Source: Azospirillum sp. TSH58 (GTDB lineage: Bacteria > Pseudomonadota > Alphaproteobacteria > Azospirillales > Azospirillaceae). From it: a stretch of 64,000 bases of DNA. The notes under the pieces were generated by a model. The model was not told the origin of the DNA, made no database searches, and was given only the letters and a program-made list of their open reading frames with translations. Shown piece by piece: positions 26,737-59,542 of this stretch. The first letter of the stretch is position 1. Each line of letters opens with the position of its first letter. The stretch is from positions 435,001-499,000 of the forward strand of contig NZ_CP022363.1 in assembly GCF_003119115.1 (NCBI RefSeq), given 5' to 3'. A program made the position numbers and the translations under genes.

Positions 26737-26805
26737 CGTGTCCTCGTGTCATGCCGTGTCGATGGACGGACGATAAAAAGCTCCCGGCGTCGGAACAAAC
26801 GATGA

Positions 26806-26833: not shown

Positions 26834-26843
26834 ATGGCTCACC

Positions 26844-43148: not shown

Positions 43149-43183
43149 GGTGCCTGTTCCTTCCTCACGCCTGTTCATGGTGT

Positions 43184-44617
43184 TCATGCCGGGGATCGGG
43201 TGCGTTTCAGCCGGGCCAGCCCGATCCGCACCTGACCCATCAGGTTGGCGGGGTTGAGCACGGCCAGGGCCAGCAGATAGAGGCTGCCCGCCGGGGCGAG
43301 CTGGACGAGCAGCAGGTCGCTTTCCATCGCCGCGATCTCCAGCCCGGCGGCGAAGAGCAGGGCGGCGGTGGTCACCTTCAGAAGATCCTTCACCGGCACC
43401 GCCAGGACGCCGGCGCGCGGCATCAGGATGGCCGCGGCCACCACCCAGCCGAGCTGGGCCGCCAGCGAGCCGTAGGCCGCCCCGATCACGCCGAAACGCG
43501 GGATCAGGAACAGGTTGGCGCCGATGTTCAGCACCGCCGTCAGCATGGTCAGCTTCAGGATGTAGCCGGTCTTCTTGGTCAGGTGCAGCGACAGGTCGAA
43601 GTGGTAGATGCGCAGGATGCTGATGAAGACCGACAGGGCGACGATCGGCATGATCGCGGCACCGGTCTCGCGGTACGCCTCGCCGAGCAGCAGCCCGACG
43701 ATGCCCTGGGCGGAGATGACCTCCATCAGCACCAGGGGCAGGCAGACCAGCAGCAGGATCGTCAGGTTCTGCGCCATGATCGGGCGCGCGGCGCGCGGGC
43801 CGGCGCTGTCATAGGCGCGCGACGCCATCGGCAGCGTGACCAGCGACGCCGCCGACGCCACCAGCATGATCGGCTGCTTGGCGAGGTCGAAGGCCATGGC
43901 GTAGGCGCCGGCCGCGGCCTCGCCGATGAACCAGTAGATCAGGAAGCGGTCGGCGAAATCGAGCGCCCAGCCGACCATCAGGCTCAGCATCAGCGGGCCG
44001 CCGAAGGTCAGCAGGAGGCCGACGCGCTCCCGCGCCGGCCAGCGCAGCGAGATGCCCTTCAGGTCGGAGCGCAGCCAGATCGCGGTGACCAGCAGGAAGC
44101 CGATGCTGGTGCCGAGCAGCAGCCCCTCCTCCTTCCAGCCGATCAGCACGAAGGCGGAGCCGAGCGCCAGCCCGAACAGCGCCTTGGCGAAGGACTTCGC
44201 CGCGAAGACGGAGCCCTTCAGCCGCGCCCGCGACATCTGGATCGACAGGTCGAACCAGGAGATCAGGATGGCGATGACCGGCAGATACAGCACATAGTCG
44301 ATGCCGTTCATGCCGGGGTAGAAGGCCACCACCGTCCCCAGGATGGCGAGCACCCCGCAGGCCACCACCAGGAAGGCGGTGACCACGGTGGAGAGCCAGG
44401 CGTCCCGCTCCGCCGCGTCGCCGCCGCACTTGCGCAGGACGAACAGGCCCATCCAGGAGAAGCCGCAGGCGTTGATCGCCGCCGCCGCCGCCATCACCAG
44501 GGCGTAGTGGCCGTAGGCCTCCGGCGTGACGATGCGCGAGAAGACCGCGACCGCCGCGAAGCCCAGGATGCCGACGGCGATCCGGGTCGCGAAGAAGGCG
44601 AAGCCGCTCGACATCAT
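43184..44617 (-). CDS. Polysaccharide biosynthesis flippase (Wzx/MATE-like)
   Basis: 477 residues with 12-14 hydrophobic helices and no large soluble domain. Typical O-antigen flippase features are RIAVGILGFAAVAVFSRIVTPEAYGHYAL at the N-terminus and LGWVVAAAILMPRAG near the end. It would move lipid-linked repeat units across the inner membrane. The start at 44617 overlaps the stop of the ligase gene by four bases. Confidence 0.88.
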   Translation of the reverse strand: MMSSGFAFFATRIAVGILGFAAVAVFSRIVTPEAYGHYALVMAAAAAINACGFSWMGLFVLRKCGGDAAERDAWLSTVVTAFLVVACGVLAILGTVVAFYPGMNGIDYVLYLPVIAILISWFDLSIQMSRARLKGSVFAAKSFAKALFGLALGSAFVLIGWKEEGLLLGTSIGFLLVTAIWLRSDLKGISLRWPARERVGLLLTFGGPLMLSLMVGWALDFADRFLIYWFIGEAAAGAYAMAFDLAKQPIMLVASAASLVTLPMASRAYDSAGPRAARPIMAQNLTILLLVCLPLVLMEVISAQGIVGLLLGEAYRETGAAIMPIVALSVFISILRIYHFDLSLHLTKKTGYILKLTMLTAVLNIGANLFLIPRFGVIGAAYGSLAAQLGWVVAAAILMPRAGVLAVPVKDLLKVTTAALLFAAGLEIAAMESDLLLVQLAPAGSLYLLALAVLNPANLMGQVRIGLARLKRTRSPA

Positions 44618-46047
44618 GGCCGGGACTCCGCCACCGGGATGCCGTTCTGCAGCTTGGGCCGCCGTCCCGCCGCCGGACGCGGGGTCAGGGCGTGGGCGTG
44701 GACCGTCTTGGCCAGCCGCGTCTGGAAGGCGGTGAAGAGGAACCACAGCAGGCCGTTCTGGATCAGCAGGCTGCTTTCCGCGACGTTGCCCAGCAGGAGC
44801 ATCATGGCGAAGACGATGTGCCAGCGCGCCGCCCCGCTGCGGTCGACCGGGACGATCCGGGCGATCCGCGACAGGTAGATCACATAGGCCACCAGGAAGA
44901 GGCCGAGGCCGAGCAGGCCGACGTCCAGCGTCGTCTGGATGAAGCCGTTGTGGGCGTGGATGTCGAAGCGCCCCGAGGTGCGCCAGAACAGCGCGCCCGG
45001 CGCGTCCAGCCCCGACCAGAAGGCGCTGAAGCCATAGCCCAGCACCGGCTGCTGCTCGATCATCCGGAAGGCGAAGTCCCAGATCAGCGTGCGCCCGGTC
45101 AGCGTGATGTCGCGGCCGAGCAGCGCGACGATGCTTTCCAGGTTCAGCAGCGCGAAGATGGCGGCCAGCATGATGACCATGGTGCCGCCGTACAGTTCCA
45201 GCGCCAGCGACCCGGCGTCCTGCCGGTGGGTGACCAGCATCACCAGGGTCATGCCGGCCATGGCGACGATCAGCGCCGTGGCGGAGCCGGACATGGCGAG
45301 ACAGCCGGCCATGATGGCGAAGGTGCCCAGCCGCCAGACCAGCGCCATGGTATCGGTCACCGGGCGGGAGCGCAGGACGAACAGCCCGGCGGTCAGGCCG
45401 AAGGCCATGGCGTCGCCCAGACCGTTCTTGTGGGAGAAGACGCCGCGCCACTGCGATCCCTGCTCCGCCGGCATCAGGCCGTAGCTCGGCAGGCCGACCG
45501 CGAGCAGCGCGCTCAGCACCGCCAGCACGAAGACCGCGCGGTGGATCAGCCGGGCCAGCGCGACCTCGCCGTAGGACAGGCCGACATAGAGGCCGAAGAT
45601 CGTCGTGCCGACCAGGGCCACGCTGCGGCGGATGGTCAGCGACGGGTCATGCGACCATTGGCTGGACGCGATGGCCAGCACCACCATGAGCGCCATGGGA
45701 ATGCTGAGATAGCGGAAGGCCCGAACGCCGTGGAGCATGACGATCCGCAGCAGGGCCGTGGCGTAGAGGCCGGCGAAGATGAGCTGCTTGATGGTGTCGC
45801 CGGAGGACTCCGGCGCGCCGCCCGCGCGCAGGATGAAGCGCTGCGAGGGCGCGGACATCATCACCGACAGCAGCGCGTCCCACAGCAGGATCAGGCCGAT
45901 CGCGCACACCACCTGATCGAACAGGCTGGGCGTGAGATCGGCCGCGCTGCGCAGGAGCGGCGGCGTCCGTGGCCGGGCGGGCGGCGCGTCCGCAGCGGGC
46001 GCCGCCGCCAGAGCGGCTCGGTTTCGCGGAAATGGCGTTGCACTCAT
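44614..46047 (-). CDS. O-antigen ligase/polymerase family protein
   Basis: 477 residues with about twelve helices. The Wzy_C/WaaL family marker is the large periplasmic loop with GYGFSAFW and FDIHAHNGFIQTTLDVGLLGLG, containing the conserved His-x-His-Asn pattern. The ATG at 46047 has GGGGGAAC upstream; an ATG at 46071 is possible. It either polymerises exopolysaccharide repeats or ligates them; next to a flippase and a Wzz protein, polymerase is more likely. Confidence 0.86.
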   Translation of the reverse strand: MSATPFPRNRAALAAAPAADAPPARPRTPPLLRSAADLTPSLFDQVVCAIGLILLWDALLSVMMSAPSQRFILRAGGAPESSGDTIKQLIFAGLYATALLRIVMLHGVRAFRYLSIPMALMVVLAIASSQWSHDPSLTIRRSVALVGTTIFGLYVGLSYGEVALARLIHRAVFVLAVLSALLAVGLPSYGLMPAEQGSQWRGVFSHKNGLGDAMAFGLTAGLFVLRSRPVTDTMALVWRLGTFAIMAGCLAMSGSATALIVAMAGMTLVMLVTHRQDAGSLALELYGGTMVIMLAAIFALLNLESIVALLGRDITLTGRTLIWDFAFRMIEQQPVLGYGFSAFWSGLDAPGALFWRTSGRFDIHAHNGFIQTTLDVGLLGLGLFLVAYVIYLSRIARIVPVDRSGAARWHIVFAMMLLLGNVAESSLLIQNGLLWFLFTAFQTRLAKTVHAHALTPRPAAGRRPKLQNGIPVAESRP

Positions 46048-46077
46048 CCTGTTCCCCCGATGAACCCGCATCCATTT

Positions 46078-46245: not shown

Positions 46246-48498
46246 TCAGCGCGTGTAGTAGCGGCGCGCCTCGTTCATGCCGTAGGCCTCTTCCGACGCG
46301 TCGGTGCGGGCCAGCTTCTTCAGGTCCACCCGGCTCAGCACGACGCTGGTCACGTCGCGGCCGAGTTCGGTCAGCCGGTCGATGGCCCGCTGGACGACGG
46401 CGCGCGGCGTCTGCTCCCAGCGCACCACGAACAGGCATTCCGTCGCCGACCGGGTCAGCACGCCCGCGTCCGCCACGACCGCCATCGGCGGGGTGTCGAG
46501 GATGACGCAGTCGTATTCGAGCGAGGCGAACTTGATGATGCTCGCCAGCTTCTCCGACCCCAGAAGCTCCTGCGGGTGGTCGCAATGCGGGCGGCCGACG
46601 ACGTAGTGCAGCCCGCTGCGGCCATCCACCTGGACGACGTCCTGCCATTCCGCCTTGCCGACGATCAGGTCGCTCAGGTCGCCCGGGGCGTTGTCCCCCA
46701 GCACGGCCCCGATGCGCGGGCAGCGCAGGTCGCATTCCAGAAGCAGGACCCGCCGGCCGGACGCCGCCAGCATGCGCGCCAGGGTCAGGCAGACGGTGGT
46801 CTTGCCCTCGCCGGGAACGGCGGAGGTCACCATCACCACGGAGCCGGTGTTCAGGGCGCCGCGGGCGTAGAGCGACACGCCGATGGCGCGCACCGCCTCG
46901 CTGTACTCCGACCGCGGACGGTCGAGGACGTAATCCTCCGGCTTGGCGTTCTTGTGATGCGGCAGGGACGGCACCAGCCCGATGGCCGGCACGCCGATCG
47001 TCTCCTCCACATGCTGGGTGTTGCGGAAGGTCTTGTTCAGATGGTCGCGCAGGAAGGCCAGGAACATGCCGATCAGCAAGCCCACGGCCAGACCGCCGCC
47101 GACGAACAGCTTCTTGCCCGGCGTGGACGGCTCCAGCGGCGGTTCCGCCTTGGACACGACGCGGGCGTCGCGCTGCTGAAGGTCGTCCTGCTCGCGCGTT
47201 TCGACGAGACGCTGGAGCAGACCTTCATAGACGCGGCGGTTGGCGTCGGCCTCGCGCTGCAACTGGGCCAGGCGGACGTTGGCGCCCAGCTCGCCCGCGG
47301 TCTCGGCGGTCAGCTTCTTCAACGCGGCTTCAAGCTCGCGCTCGCGGGCGCGGGCGATCTCGACCTCGTTGTTGATCACCGCCATGATCTTGGTGGCTTC
47401 CTCGCGCATCTTCTGGCGCAGGTTCGTCAACTGGTTGACGTAGGCCTGCACCGCCGGATGCTGGTCGCCGTAGCGGGTGCGGTATTCGGCGAGCCGCCGC
47501 GCGATGCCCGACTCCTCCTCGCCCAGCCGCTGGATCAGCGGCGAGCCGAGGATCTCCGCCGCGTTGCCCTGGGTCGGGCTGCGCGCGACGATCCGGGCGT
47601 TCTGCGCCCGCGCCTCCGCCCGGCCGCGCTCCGTCTGGGCGACGACCAGGGCGCGGTTCAGCTCGGCCAGCTGCTGCGACAGGAAGGTCTCGCCGCCGGC
47701 GCCGCCGAGCACGAGGCCCTGCTGCGCGCGGTAGTCCTGCACCGCCTTGTCCGACACCTCGACCTGGGCGCGCAGCTCGTTGATGCGGTCCTCCAGCCAC
47801 TTGTTGGCCTGCTGGTTGACCTCCTGCTTGGTCTGGAGCTGGTCGAGCAGATACTCGTCCACGAAGGCGTTGGCGATGCGCGCCGCCTTGTCCGCCTCCT
47901 TCGCCTTGAAGGAGACGAGGATGGTGTAGGACTGCGCGTCGCTGGTCGCCGACAGGCCGCGGCGGACGTCGGCGATGACCGCCGCCCGCTCCTTCTCCGG
48001 CGTCGTCGGCTCCTTCACGCCGATGCCGGCGGAGTTCAGGTAGCCGGTGATCTGCTGGCGCAGCGGCGACAGGTCGTAGCCGACGGTGTCGTTGATCCCG
48101 GCGATGGCCCGGTCGATGGCCGAAGGCCGCTCGATGGCGCCGTTGAACTCCGGGTCATGGACCAGCCCCAGCCGGTCCACCACCTTGGCGGCGGTGGCGG
48201 AGGAGGTGATCATGTCGATTTCGGTCCGGATCGCCGCCGCCTCGCGCGGCAGGTTGGAGATCACGGCGTTGATGTCCGTGACCTCCGTCGTGCGCGGGTC
48301 GATGATGAGCACGGCCTGGCTGGTGAACCGCGGCTCATAGAGCAGGGCACCGGTGGTGGCCAGCGCGGTGCAGCACAGGACGCTGGCGATGATCGTGCTC
48401 CGGCGCCGGCGCAGCACCTGGAGGAGGTCGCGGAGCGCGACCTCCCGGGTGCTGGCTTCGGACCCCAGGGCTCCGTCTACATGAGTGTACGCGGCCAT
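46246..48498 (-). CDS. Wzz-type polysaccharide co-polymerase fused to bacterial tyrosine kinase (ExoP/Wzc-like)
   Basis: 750 residues. A Wzz domain begins after TM1 (about 36-56), followed by long coiled coils (about 215-440) and TM2 near 470-490 (GGGLAVGLLIGMFLAFL). The C-terminal third is a BY-kinase: Walker A SAVPGEGKTT near 557-566, Walker A' LLLECDLRCPR and Walker B DCVILDTPP near 661. The tail has only three tyrosines (EAYGMNEARRYYTR), fewer than in Wzc. It controls chain length and export of the exopolysaccharide. AGGAG precedes the ATG at 48498. Confidence 0.92.
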   Translation of the reverse strand: MAAYTHVDGALGSEASTREVALRDLLQVLRRRRSTIIASVLCCTALATTGALLYEPRFTSQAVLIIDPRTTEVTDINAVISNLPREAAAIRTEIDMITSSATAAKVVDRLGLVHDPEFNGAIERPSAIDRAIAGINDTVGYDLSPLRQQITGYLNSAGIGVKEPTTPEKERAAVIADVRRGLSATSDAQSYTILVSFKAKEADKAARIANAFVDEYLLDQLQTKQEVNQQANKWLEDRINELRAQVEVSDKAVQDYRAQQGLVLGGAGGETFLSQQLAELNRALVVAQTERGRAEARAQNARIVARSPTQGNAAEILGSPLIQRLGEEESGIARRLAEYRTRYGDQHPAVQAYVNQLTNLRQKMREEATKIMAVINNEVEIARARERELEAALKKLTAETAGELGANVRLAQLQREADANRRVYEGLLQRLVETREQDDLQQRDARVVSKAEPPLEPSTPGKKLFVGGGLAVGLLIGMFLAFLRDHLNKTFRNTQHVEETIGVPAIGLVPSLPHHKNAKPEDYVLDRPRSEYSEAVRAIGVSLYARGALNTGSVVMVTSAVPGEGKTTVCLTLARMLAASGRRVLLLECDLRCPRIGAVLGDNAPGDLSDLIVGKAEWQDVVQVDGRSGLHYVVGRPHCDHPQELLGSEKLASIIKFASLEYDCVILDTPPMAVVADAGVLTRSATECLFVVRWEQTPRAVVQRAIDRLTELGRDVTSVVLSRVDLKKLARTDASEEAYGMNEARRYYTR

Positions 48499-48541: not shown

Positions 48542-49936
48542 TCAGCCCTTCACGATCTTCTCGTCGACGATGCCCGCCTTGCCGAAGGCGTTGCGGGTGT
48601 CGACGATCAGCGGCAGCCCGTCCAGGAAGGCCTTCAGATCGAAGGAGTCGTGGTCGGTGCACAGGATCGCGGCGTCGAAGGCACCGTCGCGGATCTCCTC
48701 CAGCGCGACCGACGGCGTGCCGGCCATGCGGGCGAGGCGGCGCGTCTCCGGCAGCTCCGGCACGTGCGGGTCGTAGTAGAAGACCTCGCAACCGCGGTCC
48801 TGCAGAAGATCGATGATCTTCAGCGCCGGGCTTTCGCGCATGTCCTCGATGTTCTTCTTGTAGGCGACGCCGAGCACGAGGATGCGCGACCCGCGCAGCG
48901 CGCGGCCCAGCTTGGAGTCCATGGCCTGGGACAGCCGCTCCACCACGTAATGCGGCATGCGGGTGTTGATCTCGCCGGCCAGCTCGATGAAGCGGGTGGC
49001 GACGTCGAACTCGCGGGCCTTCCAGGTCAGGTAGAAGGGGTCGATCGGGATGCAGTGACCGCCCAGGCCGGGGCCGGGGTAGAAGGGCATGTAGCCGAAG
49101 GGCTTCGTCTTGGCGCCCTCGATCACTTCCCACACGTCGATGCCCATCGCGTCGTAGACGACCTTCAGCTCGTTGACGAGCGCGATGTTCACGCAGCGGA
49201 AGATGTTCTCGGTCAGCTTCACCGCCTCGGCCGCCTCCAGCGACGAGACCGGGATCACGCGCTCCAGCGCGCGGCCGTACATCGAGCAGGCGATGCGCAG
49301 CGCGTTGGGGTCCTCGCCGCCGACGATCTTCGGGATGCGGGCGGTGGTGAAGGTCTCGTTGCCGGGGTCCTCGCGCTCAGGCGAGAAGGCCAGCAGGAAG
49401 TCCGTGCCGCTGACGAGGCCGGTCTTCTCCAGGATCGGGCGCACCACCTCGCGCGTCGTGCCGGGGTAGGTGGTCGATTCGAGGACGATCAGCTGGCCGG
49501 GGCGCAGCACCTGGGCGATCTGCCGGGTGGTGACCTCGATGCAGCTCATGTCCGGTTCGCGGTTGCGCGTCAGCGGCGTCGGCACGCAGATGACGATGGC
49601 GTCCATGTCGGCCAGCGACTGGAAGTTCGCCGTGGCCGTGAAACGGCCCTCCTCGATCATCCCGCGGACCTCGTCGGTCGACACGGTGCCGATGTAGGAG
49701 GTGCCGCCGTTCAGGCTGGCGACCTTTTCCGGATCGATGTCGAAGCCCGTCACCGAAAAGCCGGCCCGCGCGAACAGCCGCGCCAGAGGCAGGCCGACGT
49801 AACCCAGGCCGATGACGCCGACGCTGGCGGTGCCCGCCGCGATCTTCGACTCCAGCGCCGCCAGGGCTTCCGGAATGCCGGACGTGCCGACCGAACCCCC
49901 GCTCACCAACAGGTCGGCAAACTCATTGCTCGACAT
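48542..49936 (-). CDS. UDP-sugar 6-dehydrogenase (WbpA/UDP-GlcNAc or ManNAc dehydrogenase type)
   Basis: 464 residues. The Rossmann motif GVIGLGYVGLP is at 40-50, SPEREDPGN is the signature of UDP-HexNAc dehydrogenases such as WbpA, and the catalytic cysteine is in GLGGHCIPIDPFYL. An extra N-terminal segment of about 38 residues precedes the fold. It makes a UDP-hexosaminuronic acid with two NAD+, a precursor for an acidic exopolysaccharide. It is transcribed toward the BY-kinase gene, 43 bases away. UDP-glucose dehydrogenase is a less likely alternative because of the SPERE motif. Confidence 0.9.
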   Translation of the reverse strand: MSSNEFADLLVSGGSVGTSGIPEALAALESKIAAGTASVGVIGLGYVGLPLARLFARAGFSVTGFDIDPEKVASLNGGTSYIGTVSTDEVRGMIEEGRFTATANFQSLADMDAIVICVPTPLTRNREPDMSCIEVTTRQIAQVLRPGQLIVLESTTYPGTTREVVRPILEKTGLVSGTDFLLAFSPEREDPGNETFTTARIPKIVGGEDPNALRIACSMYGRALERVIPVSSLEAAEAVKLTENIFRCVNIALVNELKVVYDAMGIDVWEVIEGAKTKPFGYMPFYPGPGLGGHCIPIDPFYLTWKAREFDVATRFIELAGEINTRMPHYVVERLSQAMDSKLGRALRGSRILVLGVAYKKNIEDMRESPALKIIDLLQDRGCEVFYYDPHVPELPETRRLARMAGTPSVALEEIRDGAFDAAILCTDHDSFDLKAFLDGLPLIVDTRNAFGKAGIVDEKIVKG

Positions 49937-50340: not shown

Positions 50341-51519
50341 TCATCCCTGGACGGCGACTCCCTCCGGTTGCAGCCCGGCGGTCTCGGGCAGCGTGTTGTG
50401 CATCAGGAAGCTGGCGTCGCCGTCGCCCATGGTCAGCAGCCAGTTGCGCCGGTCGGCGAAGGCGTCCCGGTCGATGCCGGCGTCCGGCCCGGCGTGCGCC
50501 ATCACCCGCACCGGGAAGCCCACGCGGTCGGGCACCTTCATCATGCCCATGGCGAGGAAGGTCCGCTCCGCCCGCGTGTTCAGCGTCCGGCAGATGAGGG
50601 CGGTCGCGCGCTCCGTCGCGGCGATGCGCAGCGTGTGGCTCAGCAGGACCCACAGCCATTTCGGATCGCACAGGTAATCCACGATGGCGAGGCAGGGCTC
50701 CTTGCGCCAGGTCTCGCGGCGCAGGACGACGTAGCCCAGCGGCTCGTCCCCGCGCGTCAGGATGAAGCGGCGGTAGGCCGAGGCGCAGGGAATCGCGTCG
50801 TAGCGCCAGCGCAGATGCGTCAGGTCGCGCAGCGCGATCAGCGGGTAATGCGGGGAGGCGCGCCGCCAGATGGCGTCGGCCCGCGCGTCGAACCGCCCGA
50901 TCTCCTCGAACCGCGCCCCGGTCGCCCGGCTCAGCAAATGCCCGCCGATCCGCGCCCCGTGCAAGGCCGGGCCGGCGATCGTCCCGATGGTCCGCATGCG
51001 GCCCTTGAGCGAGGACGCCTCCAGGCAGCGCCGCGTGTCCAGCGGGAAGACGTAGGCGGGCAGGGCGCCGATGTCGATCCAGCCCGCCTTGCTGTAGGCC
51101 TTGTAGGCGGAATCGGAGATGTGGATGGCCATGGACAGCGGACGGCTGTCGAGCTGGGCCTCCGCCAAGGGCGTGAAGGCGCCGCGCATCCGCCATTCCG
51201 GCAGGACCATCAGGCTGTTGGCCCAGGAGGCCGGGATTTCCCGGTCCCGCGCCTTCAGGCGGAAGGGAATCCCGCATTGCTGGCCGACGATCTGCCCCTG
51301 CCGCTTGCACACCCAGACCTGCGGCCCGTCCGCGTCCCGGTCGGGCACCTCGTCGAAGAGCCAGCGGTTGTAGGCCTCGTCCACCTGCCAGACCCGTTCC
51401 CCGAACATCTTGCGCTGGAAGCCGCGCAGCTCCCCCTTATCGGAAGCGTCGAAACGGAAAACGGTTTTCTTCAGCCGGTCGGTGATCGACTGACCGACGG
51501 TGCTGCTGCTGGTGCTCAC
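50341..51519 (-). CDS. GNAT-like acyltransferase in the exopolysaccharide locus
   Basis: 392 residues, soluble. The N-terminal half has GNAT-like features (WVCKRQGQIVGQQCGIPFRL, SLMVLPEWRMRGAFTPLAEA); the C-terminal half repeats an acyltransferase-like pattern (GYVVLRRETWRKEPCLAIVDYL). Two linked GNAT-like domains occur in proteins that modify polysaccharides or in FemAB-like enzymes. Its position points to N- or O-acylation of an amino sugar, but substrate and donor are not deducible. It is its own unit, terminated before the dehydrogenase promoter. Confidence 0.68.
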   Translation of the reverse strand: MSTSSSTVGQSITDRLKKTVFRFDASDKGELRGFQRKMFGERVWQVDEAYNRWLFDEVPDRDADGPQVWVCKRQGQIVGQQCGIPFRLKARDREIPASWANSLMVLPEWRMRGAFTPLAEAQLDSRPLSMAIHISDSAYKAYSKAGWIDIGALPAYVFPLDTRRCLEASSLKGRMRTIGTIAGPALHGARIGGHLLSRATGARFEEIGRFDARADAIWRRASPHYPLIALRDLTHLRWRYDAIPCASAYRRFILTRGDEPLGYVVLRRETWRKEPCLAIVDYLCDPKWLWVLLSHTLRIAATERATALICRTLNTRAERTFLAMGMMKVPDRVGFPVRVMAHAGPDAGIDRDAFADRRNWLLTMGDGDASFLMHNTLPETAGLQPEGVAVQG

Positions 51520-51592
51520 ATGCCCCCCCTTGTTCGAACGCGCCGTCCCTTTGCCCGGCCCGCGGCTCGCCCGCGGACGTCGGGACCGAAGG

Positions 51593-52816
51593 TCAGCGCA
51601 CGGATTCCGGCCGCATTCCGGATGCCTCCTGCACGCTCCCTCCTGGCTGTTGGATCGCGGTGGTCCCGGTCCGGGTTTCGGTTTTTGCGTCGTTGCTGAC
51701 CCGGTTGCCGGTGACGGTTTTGCCGATGCTGTCGGCGATGATGATGGCGGCCCGCTTGCCGTTGCGGTGGAAGAGGTTGTCGCGCAGTTCCAGCGTGATC
51801 GAGCCGTTGCCCTTCTGGTGCTGCAGGACGCCGCCGTTGTTGTCGTAGAACTCGTTGTCGTAGACCCGGTAGGTCACGTCGATCCCGCGGTTCTGGCCGA
51901 GCGAGATGCCCGCGTCGGCGTTGCGGAAGATGACGTTGCGGTAGATCTCGGTGCTGGACTTGGCCAGGATGCCGGCGCCGCGCGGGTTGTCGTGGATCAG
52001 ATTGTCGTGGATCCTCAGCGCGCTGCCGGCCTGCCCCTGGTCGTGGTAGAGGCCGTGGGACCGGCCCTCGCCGCCGTTGATGCCGTTGTTGAAGACCCGG
52101 TTGTGGGCGATCTCGCCGGTCAGGATGCGCCCGTTCCAGCCGGAATAGACGCCGCCGTCCTTGCGCCATCCGTTGTCGGCGATGGTGTTGCGCGTGATGA
52201 CCTGGTCGGTGTTGTCCGCCGCGTAATGCACGATCCCGTAGGCGCCGTTGCCGGTGATGGCCGACCCGTCGATCCGCAGCCCGTCGGCGGTGCCGGCAAC
52301 GACGATTCCGGAGCCGCCGTTGCCCGCGACGGTCACGTTCGTCACCGAGACGTTGCGCGCCCGCGGGCCGAGCAGCAGGCCGGTGTCGGCCGCGCCGGTG
52401 ATGGTCAGCCCGTCGAAGGCGACGTTCACCTTGCCGTTCAGGCTGACCGCGACGGAGGCGCCCCGCGCGTCGATCACCGGAGCGTCGCCCTTGCCATAGG
52501 CGCCGTAGGTGACCGGCCGGTCCGCCGTTCCGGAGGAGGAGGCCAGGAGGCTGCCGCGCCAGCTCTCCCCGCGCTCGAACAGCACGCGGCTTCCCGGCGG
52601 GAAGGCCGTGGCGTTCACCTTCTCCAGCGATTTCCACGCCTCCTTCGGGCCGCGGCCCGACCGGCGGTCGTCGCCGTCCGTGGCATCGACGTAGAAGACC
52701 GGCGCGTCGTTGGCGCTCCGGCCGGCGTTTTGGTCGGCGTCCCGGCGCCCGCTGACGAGCAGCGACGGCTGGGCGGGACGCTCGATGGCGGGGGGAGGCG
52801 GGGGCAGGTGATCCAT
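51593..52816 (-). CDS. Right-handed parallel beta-helix protein (pectate lyase-like fold)
   Basis: 407 residues. After a proline-rich N-terminus (MDHLPPPPPAIERPAQP) and FYVDATDGDDRRSGRGP, residues about 55-375 show repeated beta-helix turns (GLTITGAADTGLLLGP, IRIDGSAITGNGAYGI-like). Conserved blocks YSGWNGRILTGEI, GRSHGLYHD and NPRGAGILAKSSTEIY recur almost unchanged in the larger paralogue at 56161-58317. No signal peptide is visible. Such proteins cleave or bind acidic polysaccharides, so it may be a lyase or epimerase for the locus product. The gene begins 19 bases after a small membrane-protein gene. Confidence 0.85.
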   Translation of the reverse strand: MDHLPPPPPAIERPAQPSLLVSGRRDADQNAGRSANDAPVFYVDATDGDDRRSGRGPKEAWKSLEKVNATAFPPGSRVLFERGESWRGSLLASSSGTADRPVTYGAYGKGDAPVIDARGASVAVSLNGKVNVAFDGLTITGAADTGLLLGPRARNVSVTNVTVAGNGGSGIVVAGTADGLRIDGSAITGNGAYGIVHYAADNTDQVITRNTIADNGWRKDGGVYSGWNGRILTGEIAHNRVFNNGINGGEGRSHGLYHDQGQAGSALRIHDNLIHDNPRGAGILAKSSTEIYRNVIFRNADAGISLGQNRGIDVTYRVYDNEFYDNNGGVLQHQKGNGSITLELRDNLFHRNGKRAAIIIADSIGKTVTGNRVSNDAKTETRTGTTAIQQPGGSVQEASGMRPESVR

Positions 52817-52835
52817 GGGTCCGGCTCGCGCGGCC

Positions 52836-53039
52836 TTACAGGGCGACGCGGATCAGCGCGTAGGCCAGGCCCCAGGCCGCCAGCGCGCAGCCGGAGCACA
52901 GCAGTGCCCAGCCGACCCGATGGAGATCGAGGATCGGGGGGGCGACGCGGTCCGTCGCCGTCGGGGCGGAGTCCGTCGGAAGGACGTCCGCGACCCCACC
53001 CAACAGGTTCGGGCTGGCCGGCGTGGCATGCTCGATCAT
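52836..53039 (-). CDS. Small single-helix membrane protein, 67 residues
   Basis: A 67-residue frame with AGGAG seven bases before the ATG at 53039. Residues 1-40 are polar and proline-rich; residues about 42-64 form one hydrophobic helix (VGWALLCSGCALAAWGLAYAL). I do not recognise it. It is the first gene before the beta-helix gene and probably co-transcribed, so it may anchor or export that protein. Topology with a cytoplasmic N-terminus is a guess. Confidence 0.6.
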   Translation of the reverse strand: MIEHATPASPNLLGGVADVLPTDSAPTATDRVAPPILDLHRVGWALLCSGCALAAWGLAYALIRVAL

Positions 53040-53269
53040 GGCGATCTCCTCGCTGGGGGCCTGACAAGCGGGGGAACCGGCGACTGAAACCGCAACGTGT
53101 CCCTATTGTGGTATTTTGTGTTACGTCGCGGACAAATAAAGGGAAATGAAAAGGGATCACGCTTAAGCGATCACGACGCGATAAGGAGGCATTCCGAAGG
53201 GAGGAACAGACTTTCTCTTTGGAATTGCCGCTTCGATTTTATCCGCAATGCATATGACAACGGCAAGAA

Positions 53270-53297
53270 CTCCCTCTCCCCGCGGCGGGAGAGGGAG
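53270..53297. terminator. Perfect GC hairpin after the deacetylase gene
   Basis: CTCCCTCTCCC (53270-53280) and GGGAGAGGGAG (53287-53297) form an 11-bp stem with a 6-base loop, 20 bases past the deacetylase stop. It is a variant of the stems in the composite repeat elements. Confidence 0.6.
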
Positions 53298-53317
53298 CGT
53301 CTGAGAGACCGGACCGC

Positions 53318-54400
53318 TTATCCAGCCAGAGCGCGCTTCATGTTGCCGGCACCGCCGCGCAGCAGGCGCTTCACCAGCTGCTGCTTCGCGGGGGCCGGAC
53401 CGTTCTCGAAGCAGATGCGCTGAATCCGCCGCTGCGGACCGCCCCGGCGCGGCCAGGAGGTGCCGAAGGTGAGGTCGACGCCATCGCCGTACAGCTCCCC
53501 GAACAGCGCCTCGGGCAGGCCCTCGTCCGAATAGGGGAAGGCGAAGGACCCGCAGCCGGGGCCGAACAGCTCCCGGATGCCGGCGACGCTGCCGGTCACC
53601 TCCTCCTTCCGCTGGTCCGGCGTCAGCAGGCGGTGGTTGGGATGGTCGAAGCCGTGGGCGCCGATCGACACCCCCTCCGTCATCAGGTCGGCGATCTCGT
53701 CGCGGGTCAGATAGGGCTTCCGGGTCGCCAGGAAGTCGGCCGTGTCGAACTCCAGGACGGTGGCGACCTCGTCCAGCACGGCGCGCTGATGCCAGCTCAC
53801 CTTCATGACGGCGGCGGCGGGGTCGGCGGTGGCAGAATTGGCGGCGGCAGAATTGGCGGCGGCAGAATTGGTGGTGGCGCCCGCCCGCGCCAGGGTGGCG
53901 GCGCAAACGGCGCGGCGGGGATCGGCCTCCGCCAGCCGGCTCAGCCGCTCCGCCAGAAGGCTCGCCTTGTGGCGGTAGAAAAGCGTCTTGTTGTCGAGGA
54001 AGTTCAGGTTCAGGTACAGCGCCGGACGGATGCCCTTGCGGCGCAGGATGGGCATCGCCACCTCCGCCACCTCGCGCATGCCGTCGTCAAAGGTGACCAG
54101 CAGCGACGGGCGGCGGATCTCCGGCCCGCCCATCGCCGACCCGGTGACGGTGGGCAGGTCCGTCGGCTCGAAGTGCTTCAGGAGGAAATCAAGGTCCTCC
54201 GTGAACTCCTTGGGCGTGCGCGGCCGGTAGATGTGTTTCAGATGATCCGGCACCGTGTCGCAGACGGCGTGGTAGACGACGGCCAGCACCGGGCTGCCGT
54301 AGGCGTGATGGCAGGCGGTCCCCAGCGGGTTGCGCAGCGCGTCCATCCACCGAAGCCGCCGGCCCAGCCCGCCACCGGAAATCACGTCGGCAACGCTCAT
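53318..54400 (-). CDS. Polysaccharide deacetylase (NodB domain)
   Basis: 360 residues. The NodB metal-site motifs are LLVTFDDG (101-107) and GAHGFDHPNH (247-256), with the C-terminal FAFPYSDEG. A large insert between them (about 130-245) contains an alanine/serine/asparagine-rich stretch built of NSAAA repeats (178-197). No signal peptide is evident, so it may act on lipid-linked intermediates at the cytoplasmic face, removing N-acetyl groups. It sits within the exopolysaccharide locus, 35 bases after the neighbouring glycosyltransferase gene. Confidence 0.88.
   Translation of the reverse strand: MSVADVISGGGLGRRLRWMDALRNPLGTACHHAYGSPVLAVVYHAVCDTVPDHLKHIYRPRTPKEFTEDLDFLLKHFEPTDLPTVTGSAMGGPEIRRPSLLVTFDDGMREVAEVAMPILRRKGIRPALYLNLNFLDNKTLFYRHKASLLAERLSRLAEADPRRAVCAATLARAGATTNSAAANSAAANSATADPAAAVMKVSWHQRAVLDEVATVLEFDTADFLATRKPYLTRDEIADLMTEGVSIGAHGFDHPNHRLLTPDQRKEEVTGSVAGIRELFGPGCGSFAFPYSDEGLPEALFGELYGDGVDLTFGTSWPRRGGPQRRIQRICFENGPAPAKQQLVKRLLRGGAGNMKRALAG
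53833..53877. repeat. 15-bp tandem repeat inside the deacetylase gene
   Basis: Three in-frame units of CAGAATTGGCGGCGG (the last with two T changes) encode NSAAA-type pentapeptides. A partial unit precedes them. Length changes would be in frame. Confidence 0.85.
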
Positions 54401-54435
54401 TCATGTCCTCCCGCAGAGGGTCAGAGGGCAGTGGG

Positions 54436-55374
54436 TCAGAGGGCGTCCGCGCCGTCGGGGGCGAGACGCTTGGGCTGCATCATGGCGGTGTGGATTCGGG
54501 CCATGGCCTGCGCCTCGGTCGGCGTGCGGACCAAGCGGTACAGCATCCTCTTCAGGCCCGGCGGCGTCAGCCGGAAGCCGATCTGAAGGGAGGCCGTCGC
54601 CAGGAACTCCGAATTGGTCAGGAAGCCCGACCGCCAGCACCAGACCCGGAAGGCCCATTCGTTGACGGCGTAGCGCAACCCGCCGCGGCGGACGCGCTGG
54701 GCCATGCTGGTGCGGAAGAGGAGAAGCGCCTCCTGCACCGTCTCCATGCGCGCCCCGGCCTGGAGCAGGCGGACATACAGGTCATAGTCCTCCAGATTCC
54801 CGAAGCAGGAGCGGTAGCCGCCGATGGCGGTCAGCGCCCGCCGCCGCACCATCATGGTGGGGTGCGACAGGACGCAGTGCCACTTCATGCCCTGGCTGAT
54901 CTCCTCATGGGTCGCCGGGCTGCGCTTCACGCAGGTGATGGCGCCGGGGTCCTGTTCGAACTCCGCGTGCCAGGAGAAGGACGCGTCCAGCCCCCCCTGC
55001 TCGGCGAAGGCGCGCGCCTGCGTCTCGAAGCGGTGGGGCAGACAGATGTCGTCGCTGTCCATGCGGGCCACCAGATAGCCCGTGCAATATTGCAGCCCAT
55101 CGTTCAGCGCGCGGGCCAAGCCCCCCTGGTTGCGCCGCCGCACCACCACCAGCGGGCAGGCGCGGGACGCCTGATAGCGGGCGATGACCTTCTCCTGCTC
55201 CTCCCCGATCCGTCCATCGACCACCAGCACGCATTCGCGCGGGAGAAGCGTCTGGGTATAGACGCTCTCCAGCGCGGCCTGAAGGTTGTCCGCCTTCTCG
55301 CCGGCGTAGGTGGCCATAAGCACGCTGATCGATTGAGTGTCCCGACCGTCCCTCGGTCCGCTCACGTGATTCAT
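54436..55374 (-). CDS. Glycosyltransferase family 2
   Basis: 312 residues from the ATG at 55374 with GGAG eight bases upstream. SVLMATYAGEKADNLQAALESV, ECVLVVDG and YLVARMDSDDICLPHRF with its DxD motif define a GT2 enzyme; FGNLEDYDLYVRLLQAGARM is the acceptor region. The C-terminus (LTPPGLKRMLYRLVRT) is amphipathic and may touch the membrane. An upstream extension to 55680 is open but arginine-rich and unlike any GT2. Confidence 0.87.
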   Translation of the reverse strand: MNHVSGPRDGRDTQSISVLMATYAGEKADNLQAALESVYTQTLLPRECVLVVDGRIGEEQEKVIARYQASRACPLVVVRRRNQGGLARALNDGLQYCTGYLVARMDSDDICLPHRFETQARAFAEQGGLDASFSWHAEFEQDPGAITCVKRSPATHEEISQGMKWHCVLSHPTMMVRRRALTAIGGYRSCFGNLEDYDLYVRLLQAGARMETVQEALLLFRTSMAQRVRRGGLRYAVNEWAFRVWCWRSGFLTNSEFLATASLQIGFRLTPPGLKRMLYRLVRTPTEAQAMARIHTAMMQPKRLAPDGADAL

Positions 55375-56108
55375 ACCTGGTCTCCACCCCTCTTGTCGTG
55401 GCGACGCGGACGGCGTCCGGCGGTCCGGTCCTCGGGCGTCGCCCGAGTGCCGGACCACGGACACCGCGGCCCAGGGAATGGAGGCGTGTGCGTGCCGCCC
55501 ACAGCCCCGCTTCCGCGGCACGCGCGCGGAAGCGGTTTCGGCGTTCCTTCCCCGGTGGCCGTCGGTCCGGCGCCTCTGCGGCGTCGGCCGTCCCGTCCTT
55601 GTCGTCGTTTTCAGTGCCGTTGTTGCCCTGTCTCGTCCCTTTCCTGGTCGGTTCTGCGGGGGCCTCCCTCCGGTCCGCATCCCGGACTAGGACACCCCTG
55701 GCCGTCGTATCGGCCGGTGCCGATGCACGCATAGGCACGGAATAGGTCTGTGGACGCTATCAAAGGGCGGATGGCGGGTAAACCTACATAAAGTGCAAGA
55801 TAAATATCCCCTTCGCAGCGTCCCAAAGGGAAAGCCGTCTGCCACTTTGGTCGATCTCGGAGAAAGTGGGGGATGCCGCGCGCACTGTGGAGAAATAACG
55901 GCTGATCGTCATGAAAAGCCGGCGAACGGCGGTGACGATCGGGCGTCATCACTCCGATGACGCGCAGCCTATTGTGCGACGCACAAGAAATAGAGGCGAA
56001 GGCGGTGTCGCCGGCCGGGCTGTGCTTCCGATTATTGCCGTTCCGTGTCGCGAGCGGAAGCCGGAATCGACGTCGGGACGCGCCCCGGACTCGCCCCAGA
56101 CACGCCAA
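55375..56108. other. Non-coding stretch of 734 bases with hairpins
   Basis: No convincing gene. 55400-55700 is extremely GC-rich; the open frames there encode only arginine/proline-rich shadows. The part from about 55745 to 55920 is more AT-rich (CATAAAGTGCAAGATAAAT) and probably holds the promoter of the downstream glycosyltransferase-deacetylase unit, giving a leader of more than 370 bases. GCGTCATC/GATGACGC (55943-55963) and TTGTGCG/CGCACAA (about 55974-55988) are perfect small inverted repeats. Confidence 0.5.
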
Positions 56109-56133
56109 CGCCCGGCCAGAGACTGGCCGGGCG
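56109..56133. terminator. Perfect hairpin terminator after the large beta-helix gene
   Basis: CGCCCGGCCAG (56109-56119) and CTGGCCGGGCG (56123-56133) form an 11-bp stem with an AGA loop, 28 bases past the stop of the minus-strand gene. Confidence 0.7.
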
Positions 56134-56160
56134 CGGACGTTGCCAAAGGGTATCCCGTCG

Positions 56161-58317
56161 TCAGACGATCGGGTTGGCCTTGGAGGCCGAGGAGATGGTG
56201 TTGTTGGTCACCGTCTGCTTGATGCTGTCGGCGATGTTGATCGCCGCGCGGCCGTTGTTGTTGTAGAAGGTGTTGTCGTACAGGCTCAGCGTGATCGACC
56301 CGCTGCCCTTCAGGTGCTCCAGGATACCACCGTTGTTGTTGAAGATCTCGTTGCCGTAGATCTTGTAGGTGACGTTGGTCGCCTGGTTCTGGCCGATGGA
56401 GATGCCGACGTTCGAGTTGCCGTAGATCGTGTTGTTGTAGATCTCGGTGCTCGACTTGGCGAGGATGCCGGCGCCGCGCGGATTCGAGTAGATCACGTTG
56501 TCGTGGATCTTCAGCGTGCTGTTGGCTTGGCTGTGGTCGTGATACAGCCCGTGCGACCGGCCGTCGCCGCCGCCGCTGCCGTTGTTGAAGATCGTGTTGC
56601 CGGCGATCTCACCGCTCAGGATGCGGCCGTTCCAGCCCGAATACACCGCATCGGTCCGCCAGCCGTTGTCGCTGATGATGTTGTTGGTGAAGTACTGGTT
56701 GGCGTTGTCGGCGGAATAGTGGACGAGGCCGTAGCCGCCGTTGCCGTCGATCGTGGAATGATCGATGCGCAGGTTGTTGGAGGTGCCGCTGATCACCACG
56801 CCCGAACCGCGGTTGTCGATGATCTGCGAATTGGTGACCTTCACATTGTTGGCGCCGCCGTTGAGCAGCAGGCCGGTGTCGTTCGAACCCGTCATCGTCA
56901 GGTTGTCGAACGTGATGTTGTCCTTGTTGTTCAGGCTGACGGCGTAGCTGGCGCCGCTCTTGGCCTTGATGATCGGGTCGGCGCCGGTGCCGTAGGCGCC
57001 GTAGATGATCGGCTTGTCGGTGGTGCCGGAGGTGGAGACCAGCAGGCTGTCGGTCCAGGTCTCGCCACGCTCGAACAGGACCAGCGAACCGGCGGCGAAG
57101 TTGGTGGAGTTCACCTTGGCCAGCGACTTCCAGGCCTGGTTCGGGTTGTTGCCGGAGTTGCTGTCGTTGCCGTGCGTCGCGTCGATGTAGAAGACCTGCG
57201 AGGCCGGGGTGGCCGGATAATCCGACGTCCCGCCGCTCGGGTTCGACGGGGCGGGCGGGGCCGTCGGCGTGGTCGGGGTGGTCGGAGTCGTGGGGGTGGT
57301 GGGCGTCGTGGTGGAGGAGGGGAAGAAATCCTTCGGAGCGGCGACGACCAGCGTGCCGTTCCACCACATGCCGGACTGGCCCTTCACCACGTCCTTGCCG
57401 TCGAGCGCGCCCTTGTCATAGGTGACGGAGGCGTCGGTCGGGTTGACGGCGTTGCCGTTGATGGTGATCTTGTTGACGATCAGGTTGCGGTCCTGGCCGT
57501 TCACGAAGCCATCGTTGTCGTACTGGATCTGGACCTTGTGGGCCTGACCGGGGGCGATGTCGGCGGTGAAGCTGTAGTCCTTGGCGGCGGTGCCGGCGGA
57601 GCCCTCGCCGATGACCTTGCCGTCCACCATCACCTTGAAGTGCGGGGCGACGCCGCCCGCCACGTTGCCGGCGGCGTTGACGACGATCTTCGTGCCGCCC
57701 GTCACCGCTTCGGCGGTCGCGGCGGGGAAATACTCCTTCGGGGCGGCGACGACCAGCGTGCCGTTCCACCACATGCCGGACTGGCCCTTCACCACGTCCT
57801 TGCCGTCGAGCGCGCCCTTGTCGTAGGTCACCGACTGATCGGTCGCGTCGAGCGCGTGGCCGTTGATGGTGATCTTGTTGACGATCAGGTTGCGGTCCTG
57901 GCCGTTCGCCACGCCGTCGTTGTCGTACTGGATCTGGATCTTGTGGGCCTGATCCGCCGTGACGTTGGCGTTGAAGGTGAAGTCCTTGGCGTCGGTGCCG
58001 GCGGAGCCTTCGCCGATGACCTTGCCGTCCACCATCACCTTGAAGTGCGGGGCCACACCGCCCGCCACATGACCGGCGGCGTTGATGACGATCTTCGTGG
58101 CGTTGTCGGCGGTCGCGGCGGCATCGGCAAGCGCCAGCGGCTGCGCGGTCTGCAGGGCCTGCGCCTGGAGGAGGGAGGCCGGCGTCGCGAAGGCATCGGC
58201 GGTGGACAGGGTGGACTCGCTGATCGTCATGTGCGACGTGTCGGCGCCGAGATCGCCAGCGTAGTTGGTGTGGTCGGTCAGATCCTGGTGGTGAAGGTCG
58301 ATACCCAGATCGTCCAT
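56161..58317 (-). CDS. Large beta-helix protein with two tandem carbohydrate-binding-like domains
   Basis: 718 residues from the ATG at 58317. Residues 1-70 are acidic and His/Asp-rich (DLGIDLHHQDLTDHTNYAG) with no signal peptide. Residues about 73-198 and 208-333 are near-identical repeats, period 135 residues, of a CBM36/60-like fold (APHFKVMVDGKVIGEGSAGT, IQYDNDG, GQDRNLIVNKITING, MWWNGTLVVAAPK). A TPTTPTTPT linker (337-353) joins a beta-helix domain (375-705) paralogous to the protein at 51593-52816. It is probably an extracellular polysaccharide-binding or -cleaving protein tied to the exopolysaccharide. It may leave the cell by a non-Sec route. GC is slightly lower than in neighbouring genes. 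Confidence 0.83.
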   Translation of the reverse strand: MDDLGIDLHHQDLTDHTNYAGDLGADTSHMTISESTLSTADAFATPASLLQAQALQTAQPLALADAAATADNATKIVINAAGHVAGGVAPHFKVMVDGKVIGEGSAGTDAKDFTFNANVTADQAHKIQIQYDNDGVANGQDRNLIVNKITINGHALDATDQSVTYDKGALDGKDVVKGQSGMWWNGTLVVAAPKEYFPAATAEAVTGGTKIVVNAAGNVAGGVAPHFKVMVDGKVIGEGSAGTAAKDYSFTADIAPGQAHKVQIQYDNDGFVNGQDRNLIVNKITINGNAVNPTDASVTYDKGALDGKDVVKGQSGMWWNGTLVVAAPKDFFPSSTTTPTTPTTPTTPTTPTAPPAPSNPSGGTSDYPATPASQVFYIDATHGNDSNSGNNPNQAWKSLAKVNSTNFAAGSLVLFERGETWTDSLLVSTSGTTDKPIIYGAYGTGADPIIKAKSGASYAVSLNNKDNITFDNLTMTGSNDTGLLLNGGANNVKVTNSQIIDNRGSGVVISGTSNNLRIDHSTIDGNGGYGLVHYSADNANQYFTNNIISDNGWRTDAVYSGWNGRILSGEIAGNTIFNNGSGGGDGRSHGLYHDHSQANSTLKIHDNVIYSNPRGAGILAKSSTEIYNNTIYGNSNVGISIGQNQATNVTYKIYGNEIFNNNGGILEHLKGSGSITLSLYDNTFYNNNGRAAINIADSIKQTVTNNTISSASKANPIV

Positions 58318-58747
58318 GGTCTGCACTCTCTTCCTTGTGGGGACGCCACCGCGCAGGTGGCCAGCGGGGGGCCGGCAGGCGGTCGGTGCGACCCCATCCT
58401 TTCGGTTAGCGCTTTCGCCTTTTGGCTTACCCCTTAAGACTATCCACTTCGCTGTGGCCTTAAATGGGACGATTTTAGGATAATAAATCTCAAATGCGTG
58501 ATATCTCGGTCACAGTGAGGCGGATCCGCCCCGGTGGCGCGCTGGCCGGGTGCTGCAACCGGTGGGAAAAACCTCTTCGCCGCGCGCCGCGGCGGCGGCA
58601 CCGAAAGCCGCCTTGCGCAGCCAAGGATGGCGGCGATGCGGACAAAAAGAAGCCCGCCTCCGAAATCAGTCCATCCATTGACTCGGGTCAATCCGCCGGA
58701 ACCGGACCGGGCGTAGCCTCCCTCCAGGTATTGCAAGGAGGTATGAC
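58318..58747. promoter_or_regulatory. 430-base divergent control region
   Basis: Upstream of the large beta-helix gene the minus strand has three short tetraloop hairpins close together, GCC-AAAA-GGC (58417-58426), GC-GAAA-GC (58411-58418) and CC-GAAA-GG (58398-58405), in an 80-120 base leader. An AT-rich block with TAGGATAATAAATC at about 58475-58490 is the likely promoter zone. GGCGGATCCGCC (58519-58530) is a perfect palindrome. The right end serves the small membrane peptide gene. Confidence 0.4.
58678..58691 (+). promoter_or_regulatory. FNR/CRP-like dyad upstream of the 48-residue peptide gene
   Basis: TTGACTCGGGTCAA is a perfect TTGAC-4-GTCAA dyad with the half-site spacing of FNR/CRP-family boxes (TTGAT-4-ATCAA). 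It also supplies a -35-like TTGACT 57 bases before the AGGAGG of the next gene. Confidence 0.4.
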
Positions 58748-58894
58748 ATGGAGACGATGGTCTTTCTGGTGCTGGCGCTTCTGCTGACCGGCTTCCTGAC
58801 GGCGCTGTCGGTGCTGGGCATGGCCACGCTGCACGCCACGGTGCGGGCCGTCGTTCCGCCGCGTCGTCCGATGGCCCCCGTCCGGGCCTCGTGA
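58748..58894 (+). CDS. Small membrane peptide, 48 residues
   Basis: A perfect AGGAGG (58736-58741) lies six bases before the ATG at 58748. The peptide starts METMVFLVLALLLTGFLTAL, has one strong hydrophobic helix (about 4-25) and ends with a basic, proline-rich tail (VPPRRPMAPVRAS). No family recognised. It is convergent with putR, 18 bases away. The ribosome-binding site and clean helix make translation likely. Confidence 0.65.
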   Translation: METMVFLVLALLLTGFLTALSVLGMATLHATVRAVVPPRRPMAPVRAS

Positions 58895-58912
58895 CCGGGC
58901 GTCACGCCTGAG

Positions 58913-59374: not shown

Positions 59375-59542
59375 TTCCTCGCTCCATGCCGTCTTTAACC
59401 GTTGATATCGCGGTCCAGAGACGAAAACAACCGTGGAGACACGGCGAACTCCGCGATAATCTGCGGATGCCGCAGTGGAACAAGCAAAACAAAGCGAACA
59501 CGGCGGTCTTGAGAAGACGAATTGGATCGGGTGAGAGACACC

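Follow-up and report, generated by a model that had tools for sequence, protein, structure and literature searches.

Why should an exopolysaccharide locus encode two related beta-helix proteins, one of which carries duplicated carbohydrate-binding modules (CBMs)? This arrangement is found in a 64,000-nucleotide stretch of DNA from Azospirillum sp. TSH58 (hereafter the window; C1:435001-499000 in genome G000), where the genes for a short protein, P0003, and a long one, P0004, sit in a Wzx/Wzy-type exopolysaccharide locus. The answer we favour, tentatively and at slightly less than an even chance, is that P0003, P0004 and a third paralog elsewhere in the genome are lineage-specific extracellular beta-helix enzymes that cleave exopolysaccharide and are probably lyases, with catalysis, substrate, secretion, a uronate in the polymer and common regulation all being predicted. 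This reading draws on the position of the genes in a Wzx/Wzy/Wzc locus with a dehydrogenase and the co-occurrence of locus and family in 14 of 45 Azospirillum genomes; on a fold close to those of RbmB, AlgE4, Pel9A and polysaccharide lyase family 6 (PL6), the replacement of the catalytic acids of glycoside hydrolase family 136 (GH136), an invariant residue set and ratios of nonsynonymous to synonymous divergence (dN/dS) of 0.17-0.26; and on a sister locus encoding a GH5 enzyme with two CBM60 domains, an exporter near the third paralog and a 31-bp element upstream of both CBM60-bearing genes. The features directly concerned are:

56161..58317, minus strand: P0004, the long protein, with an acidic N-terminus lacking a Sec-like signal, two CBM60 domains, a Thr/Pro linker and a beta-helix (Pfam, fold, hydropathy, N-terminus and start context of the third paralog)
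57727..58107, minus strand: CBM60 domain 1 of P0004 (PF16841; fold match to the vCBM60 structure 2xfd over one stretch of the model)
57322..57705, minus strand: CBM60 domain 2 of P0004, 81% identical in amino acids to domain 1 (PF16841 in two stretches; alignment A6)
56164..57231, minus strand: beta-helix domain of P0004 (PF13229; BLASTP against P0003)
51593..52816, minus strand: P0003, the short protein, beta-helix only, with neither a CBM nor a Sec-like signal (PF13229, AlphaFold2 model, hydropathy)
58453..58483, minus strand: 31-bp upstream element, an imperfect dyad CCTAAAATCG-NN-CCATTTAAGG, otherwise present only before the third paralog

An earlier note on this DNA, made from the sequence alone, had described two paralogous beta-helix proteins, and both frames are indeed present on the minus strand. 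P0003 comprises 407 residues and aligns with the C-terminal half of P0004 at 63% identity over 342 residues (BLASTP, E=2e-150), so that their common sequence blocks reflect paralogy rather than chance; the PF13229 beta-helix is recognized in both. P0004 spans 718 residues from an ATG at 58317 or 721 from an upstream GTG (58326), and the ATG appears the better start since the third paralog repeats the AAGGA...GACCATG arrangement while its own upstream GTG is out of frame. The CBM36/60-like repeats that the note had read in P0004 correspond to two CBM60 domains by PF16841 (105.7 bits vs a cut-off of 28.2), with fold support for one stretch, namely matches to 2xfd (TMt 0.80) and 2xhh (TMt 0.73) in a region of middling model confidence. 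The P0004 model, with a mean predicted local distance difference test score (pLDDT) of 62, was used for the CBM fold only, ten-residue blocks within residues 71-200 ranging from pLDDT 41 to 85. In fold and Pfam family these domains resemble the vCBM60 of Cellvibrio (2xfd), whereas the sequence match to it is weak (E 0.079).

The note had described the two proteins as a pair, but in the genome they belong to a family of three. Searching the genome with P0004 revealed a third paralog of 570 residues at about C1:58326-60038, some 430 kb from the window locus, with a single CBM60 and a beta-helix 82% identical to that of P0004. Between the beta-helix coding parts of these two genes, synonymous divergence (dS) is 0.216, similar to the 0.12-0.24 measured between orthologs, and the upstream flanks have diverged. 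Because the paralog dS is no larger than the ortholog dS, the coding part may have undergone gene conversion, or its third positions may be strongly biased.

To what known enzymes is the beta-helix most similar? AlphaFold2, run on an alignment of 29 rows, yielded a P0003 model that is good for residues 38-380 and has a mean pLDDT of 79 when all residues are counted. Foldseek ranked GH136 lacto-N-biosidases first (E 1.5e-10), followed by PsAly, PL6 lyases, a phage tailspike and Pel9A. A second aligner, applied to Foldseek's own matches (best 50 rows), gave Z-scores of 31.1 for the glycoside hydrolase BT_1002, 30.3-30.4 for AlgE4/AlgE6, 30.2 for Pel9A, 29.6 for LnbX, 29.5 for a rhamnogalacturonan lyase, 29.4 for RbmB and about 29 for PL6; RbmB superposed with the lowest root-mean-square deviation among these rows (2.2 Å, 295 aligned). 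Further matches include phage tailspikes, NosD and the adhesin PfbA (both Z 26.9), AlgG, and the alginate epimerase/lyase 8ja4 (Z 28.1). The structural comparison that the earlier note had suggested does recover a fold common to alginate epimerases, PL6, PL9, rhamnogalacturonan lyases and GH136, although these families lie within a few Z units of one another. Its broader proposal, that the system trims, epimerises or anchors the polymer at the surface, fits the exopolysaccharide context, but fold cannot tell the three activities apart. The model points to a carbohydrate-active or carbohydrate-binding beta-helix and to nothing narrower. This bears directly on the alternative that the beta-helix is a C5-epimerase or another polymer modifier of the AlgE/AlgG kind, acting without cutting. 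The A-modules of AlgE4 and AlgE6 rank near the top at 19-21% identity, and AlgG and 8ja4 are also listed, but no equivalent of the epimerase catalytic motif was established, and the AlgE4 profile match (E 2.5e-4) extends over 79 positions lying mostly off the candidate site described below. We consider this alternative quite unlikely.

For function, sequence is more telling than fold. Membership in GH136 was considered first, given the best Foldseek and profile matches, and was ruled out by replaced catalytic aspartates. Profile A3 matches GH136 with a whole-sequence E of 3.5e-34. This homology is strongest in an N-terminal stretch, and it reappears more weakly in another section of the helix, the one into which the active site falls; the NCBIfam LnbX equivalog scores 37 bits vs a cut-off of 2500. 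In ErLnb136, the acid/base D568 and the nucleophile D575 stand seven residues apart, and an accessory GH136-I/LnbY domain is needed for activity, as stated in an excerpt of PMC7335108. The Azospirillum rows carry His254 and Gly261 or Ser at the equivalent positions, and five distant rows of alignment A3 (three Pedobacter, one Terriglobia and one Acidobacteria) have Asp at both 254 and 261. Conversely, seven residues (His197, Tyr198, Arg230, Arg252, Tyr257, His258 and Lys286) show no variation among the Azospirillum rows (24 of 24) and are absent from the five distant ones. His254 is likewise invariant in these 24 rows, as is Asp259, although the latter is common to the distant rows. The P0004 counterparts of the candidate-site residues are invariant in the 16 rows of A4, and the likely reading of the strand pattern is that the residues lie on or near successive turns of one face. 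The retained active or binding site postulated in the earlier note is consistent with this conserved His/Tyr/Arg/Lys set.

The same residues bear on whether these proteins are enzymes at all. Non-catalytic beta-helices that anchor the polymer, whether lectin-like or as structural components of the matrix, would account for the loss of both GH136 acids, for the two CBM60 domains and for the matches to NosD and PfbA. Such a role seems rather improbable given the invariant His, Lys, Arg and Tyr residues across 24 rows and three paralogs and the low dN/dS, although binding sites can be conserved too. Within the enzymatic reading, beta-elimination is the favoured chemistry since a Lys/Tyr pair, Lys221 and Tyr184, was proposed as the catalytic set of PsAly in an excerpt of PMC6796002. 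Profile A3 also gives weak matches to PL6, PsAly and AlgE4. A lyase of this kind would need a uronate, and an (amino)uronate in the polymer is likely, as judged from the nucleotide-sugar 6-dehydrogenase encoded in the locus, an enzyme expected to supply the uronate donor.

How widely the family occurs was assessed at several depths. Among 61 genomes (37 Azospirillum, including the strain itself, and 24 others of the same class), a full-length relative of P0003 was found in 11, all of them Azospirillum; in five more Azospirillum genomes the matches were weak and partial (best E 1.5e-8 to 1.8e-4), and the remaining 45 gave none. Three locus genes, encoding Wzy (97-100% identity), the deacetylase (91-100%) and the GNAT protein (92-100%), each occur in the identical 14 of 45 Azospirillum genomes. 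The beta-helix family is present in all 14 of these carriers, and a full-length copy in none of the other 31. All three members were detected in the three carriers outside the 61-genome set, and the five non-carrier Azospirillum genomes remaining outside it gave no P0003 match. In the other 11 carriers, the P0003 and third types are each found in 11 of 11 and the P0004 type in 10 of 11. The gap, in genome G013, is suggestive of a contig break because only 3.4 kb separates P0003 from the end of its contig and the upstream element of the P0004 type sits on a different one. Another 384 genomes sampled from the class (385 when the strain's own is counted) yielded no full-length copy and a short or partial match (E<=1e-8) in two; this sample holds few close kin, with one same-genus and three same-family genomes in the listed part of it. 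A scan of GTDB contigs started from two N-terminal peptide patterns, such that relatives lacking these patterns would be missed. It returned 38 loci, 16 of which belong to the P0003/P0004 family; their sources are Azospirillum and strain ATCC 49961 (database name 'Roseomonas genomospecies 6'), whose protein is 86% identical to P0003; in the other 22, the best profile stretch falls within the first 15-167 of 370 positions. A pattern-seeded scan of viral contigs gave 28 stretches, none confirmed as relatives. Among the genomes searched, the full-length family is limited to the Azospirillum group. Purifying selection acts on all three members: in eight ortholog comparisons, pairwise dN/dS is 0.25-0.26 (P0003, residue 37 onwards), 0.17-0.23 (P0004) and 0.22-0.25 (third paralog).

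Are the members regulated together? P0004 and the third paralog are both preceded, about 130 bases upstream of the start, by the 31-bp element TTATCCTAAAATCGNNCCATTTAAGGCCACA, located in this genome at window positions 58453-58483 (minus strand) and at G000:C1:58168-58198 (plus strand). With up to three mismatches allowed, exactly two copies were found in each of the 14 carriers, 28 of 28 being free of mismatches, and none in the 31 non-carrier Azospirillum genomes; a reversed control pattern had no match. The element is unchanged in all aligned upstream regions (8/8 of the P0004 type and 9/9 of the third type). Across the eight P0004-type rows, all 31 of its columns are invariant vs 101 of 136 downstream. 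When P0004 is compared with the third paralog, 29 of the 31 element positions match, whereas downstream of it 56 of 108 do and upstream of it 8 of 17. This last comparison disfavours a neutral leftover of duplication, although the low dS between the two coding parts speaks the other way. The core forms an imperfect dyad with 8 of 10 arm positions paired, and we interpret the element as likely to be a shared operator or promoter. The window holds no second site, and the P0003 part of the locus lacks the element. A riboswitch in the P0004 leader, which looked GEMM-like, was considered and rejected: in an Rfam search over 50000-60000, the only match at E<=1, to a microRNA family, fell on a terminator-like hairpin and scored far short of the gathering threshold. 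The predicted folding of the leader was no more stable than that of shuffled sequences (z -0.10; 89 of 200 shuffles at least as stable). A sigma-70 promoter scan of 51000-59000 found 0 sites vs 0.5 expected.

The surroundings of the pair are those of a polymer assembly locus, with the following further features:

54436..55374, minus strand: GT2-family glycosyltransferase, start uncertain (ATG 55374 or shorter; frame open to 55680), by PF00535; relatives annotated at 888 and 882 bp
53318..54400, minus strand: polysaccharide deacetylase (PF01522)
52836..53039, minus strand: 67-residue protein with a single hydrophobic segment near the C-terminus, 19 bases upstream of P0003 (hydropathy; DUF5708 below cut-off only)
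50341..51519, minus strand: GNAT-type acetyltransferase, with a 41% identical copy in the sister exopolysaccharide locus
48542..49936, minus strand: nucleotide-sugar 6-dehydrogenase (TIGR03026 above cut-off)
46246..48498, minus strand: Wzc-type co-polymerase/tyrosine kinase
44614..46071, minus strand: Wzy-type polymerase (PF04932)
43184..44626, minus strand: Wzx-type flippase
42225..43187, minus strand: GT2 glycosyltransferase
41227..42213, minus strand: GT2 glycosyltransferase

The deacetylase and glycosyltransferase between the pair and the exopolysaccharide setting, both features of the earlier note's description, are borne out by these assignments; the note's 67-residue membrane protein preceding P0003 corresponds to the frame with a single hydrophobic segment. 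In order of transcription on the minus strand, the genes run P0004, GT2, deacetylase, the 67-residue frame, P0003, GNAT, dehydrogenase, Wzc, Wzy, Wzx and two GT2. An identical order is annotated in strains Az39 and MTCC4039, save that in Az39 (L047:19329-22301) Wzc and Wzy form a single 2973-bp frame ('O-antigen ligase family protein'), the two genes being separate in MTCC4039 and the window. To the right of the locus, open reading frames match two proteins also found there in the named strains, one for membrane transport and one xylose-isomerase-like. Within the deacetylase gene, the repeat NSAAANSAAANSATA at about 53805-53871 (minus strand) may represent a local repeat expansion; the frame encodes 360 residues in the window vs 346 in 12 of 13 relatives. 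The host strain belongs to the Azospirillum brasilense group and its 7.24-Mb genome is assembled in seven contigs, the window lying on one of 837 kb. This replicon is a secondary one, since ParA- and ParB-like genes lie at 33659-35567 and the P0003 orthologs in six named A. brasilense/A. argentinense records are on plasmids of 0.75-0.95 Mb. Elsewhere in the window, a beta-lactamase-family gene (PF13354) at 25846-27719 adjoins a divergent LysR-type regulator.

Does the target of these enzymes lie in the plant or in the producer's own matrix? CBM60 is xylan-binding according to its Pfam description, the highest-ranking structural matches include pectate and rhamnogalacturonan lyases, and Azospirillum colonises roots (as an excerpt of PMC3899980 indicates). 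The P0004 search also retrieved seven further CBM60 proteins in the genome: two with GH5, four with other beta-helices and one with no other domain above cut-off. All of this would suit secreted enzymes for plant polysaccharides (xylan, pectin or arabinoxylan side chains) that lie in a surface-polymer locus by chance, their CBM60 domains targeting the plant cell wall. We nevertheless regard this as unlikely: two of the three members are in the exopolysaccharide locus and the third borders a glycosyltransferase cluster, the short form has neither a CBM nor a Sec-like signal, and a GH5-CBM60 enzyme is likewise found in an exopolysaccharide locus. The latter is the sister locus on contig C5 (about 739-764 kb), which encodes a Wzz/Wzc-like protein, GH10, a methyltransferase, a GH5 enzyme with two CBM60 domains, Wzx, a sugar transferase, Wzy, glycosyltransferases, a deacetylase and a GNAT protein. 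Relatives of the GNAT protein occur in most of the 45 Azospirillum genomes (42 genomes match at E<=1e-30, locus copies counted in). As the sister locus combines similar machinery and the same CBM60 handle with a different catalytic module, it suggests that such enzymes act on the polymers made beside them.

The first 70 residues of P0004 and of the third paralog contain no strongly hydrophobic segment, no Lys or Arg and ten acidic residues (hydropathy). The third paralog adjoins pyruvyl transferase and glycosyltransferase genes, and genes for an HlyD protein and an ATP-binding cassette (ABC) transporter, forming a type I exporter, lie about 14 kb away with an RTX protein between; an RTX-bearing CBM60 protein is also encoded elsewhere in the genome. 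Given these exporter genes and this RTX-bearing protein, type I export is the most likely route for the CBM60-bearing members. Taken together, the favoured reading of an exopolysaccharide-cleaving family would proceed as follows. The three proteins would be dedicated to one Azospirillum surface polysaccharide, and the CBM60-bearing members would leave the cell without a Sec signal, most likely through a type I exporter. Their Ca-dependent CBM60 domains would hold the polymer while the cleft of the beta-helix severs it, with beta-elimination at a uronate as the most likely mechanism, thereby shortening, releasing or remodelling the matrix. The short form, having no CBM, would work on that polymer untethered. 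A more specific and doubtful version makes them a new lyase (or epimerase) family derived from a GH136-like ancestor, in which the carboxylate pair was swapped for a Lys/His/Tyr/Arg site; the short form, acting freely, and the two forms tethered by CBM60, these two controlled by a 31-bp operator of their own, would then constitute the remodelling arm of one exopolysaccharide, in parallel to the GH5-CBM60 enzyme of the sister locus.

Several observations weigh against cleavage of the producer's own polymer by a lyase. The best Foldseek matches are hydrolases (GH136), and the Z-scores are near ties that do not separate lyase, epimerase, hydrolase, tailspike and adhesin. Profile A5, built on the beta-helix without its N-terminal part, retrieved no lyase, its best solved match being 7c7d at E 0.037, and the candidate residues could not be matched one by one to the catalytic set of a characterised lyase. 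The dehydrogenase is ambiguous as to its product: no equivalog model reaches its cut-off, scores are nearer the UDP-HexNAc models (UDP-ManNAc/UDP-GlcNAc dehydrogenases, 207-267 bits) than the UDP-glucose dehydrogenase ones (56-181), and the nearest solved sequences are CalS8 and a hypothetical UDP-ManNAcA dehydrogenase. The description of CBM60 as xylan-binding and the GH5 cellulases with CBM60 in the genome make plant glycans possible targets. An export signal is not visible in P0003, whose first 70 residues hold no strongly hydrophobic segment by hydropathy, and the third paralog and its exporter neighbour are outside the window locus. P0003 is split between frames in two of the 14 carriers (G008:C4:715493-716741 and G017:C3:66963-68200), so it may be dispensable, or these may be sequencing errors. 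Finally, the carriers look like one related group, so that the co-occurrence counts as roughly one event and is not strong independent evidence of function.

How does this family compare with described systems? RbmB of Vibrio cholerae is a beta-helix lyase for its own matrix polymer, Vibrio polysaccharide, which is made by a Wzy/Wzx-like system, according to an excerpt of PMC11637428. It shares with the Azospirillum proteins the right-handed beta-helix and, in the reading favoured here, the targeting of the producer's own polymer. It differs in having a predicted signal peptide and, within that excerpt, no mention of a CBM, and identity is 12%; the Azospirillum family comprises three paralogs, two with CBM60, and its activity is predicted from sequence. 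The GH136 lacto-N-biosidases LnbX and ErLnb136 show clear homology, unlike the Azospirillum family in their intact acids. PL6, PL9, PsAly and AlgE/AlgG have the same fold (Z about 27-30) but only 13-21% identity among the matches listed. The rhizobial glycanases ExoK and ExsH also cut the producer's own exopolysaccharide (an excerpt of PMC5748678). They are functional analogs only, being of a different enzyme type; a reference title in that excerpt likens ExoK to endo-beta-1,3-1,4-glucanases. The earlier note had been unable to match the system to a described one, which is too strong for the general type, in view of RbmB, and fair for this particular family, given that the searches described above saw its full-length form in the Azospirillum group only. 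No study of the locus or of its polymer-remodelling enzymes was found among the matches listed in the open-licence literature; a 2012 comparative genomics paper mentions exopolysaccharide genes in general (an excerpt of PMC3899980).

Overall, the locus encodes machinery of a familiar type in an unusual version private to one lineage, and its new points are the replaced GH136 acids and an element common to two unlinked genes. In Azospirillum, exopolysaccharide may influence aggregation and root attachment, as noted in the excerpt of PMC3899980. If the favoured reading is correct, it would provide three candidate genes, one candidate regulatory element and probably a new enzyme family, and the parallel with RbmB would show that unrelated bacteria have Wzy-type loci into which beta-helix enzymes were recruited to act on the polymer made there. 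The sister locus further suggests that CBM60 serves as an exchangeable handle for such enzymes.

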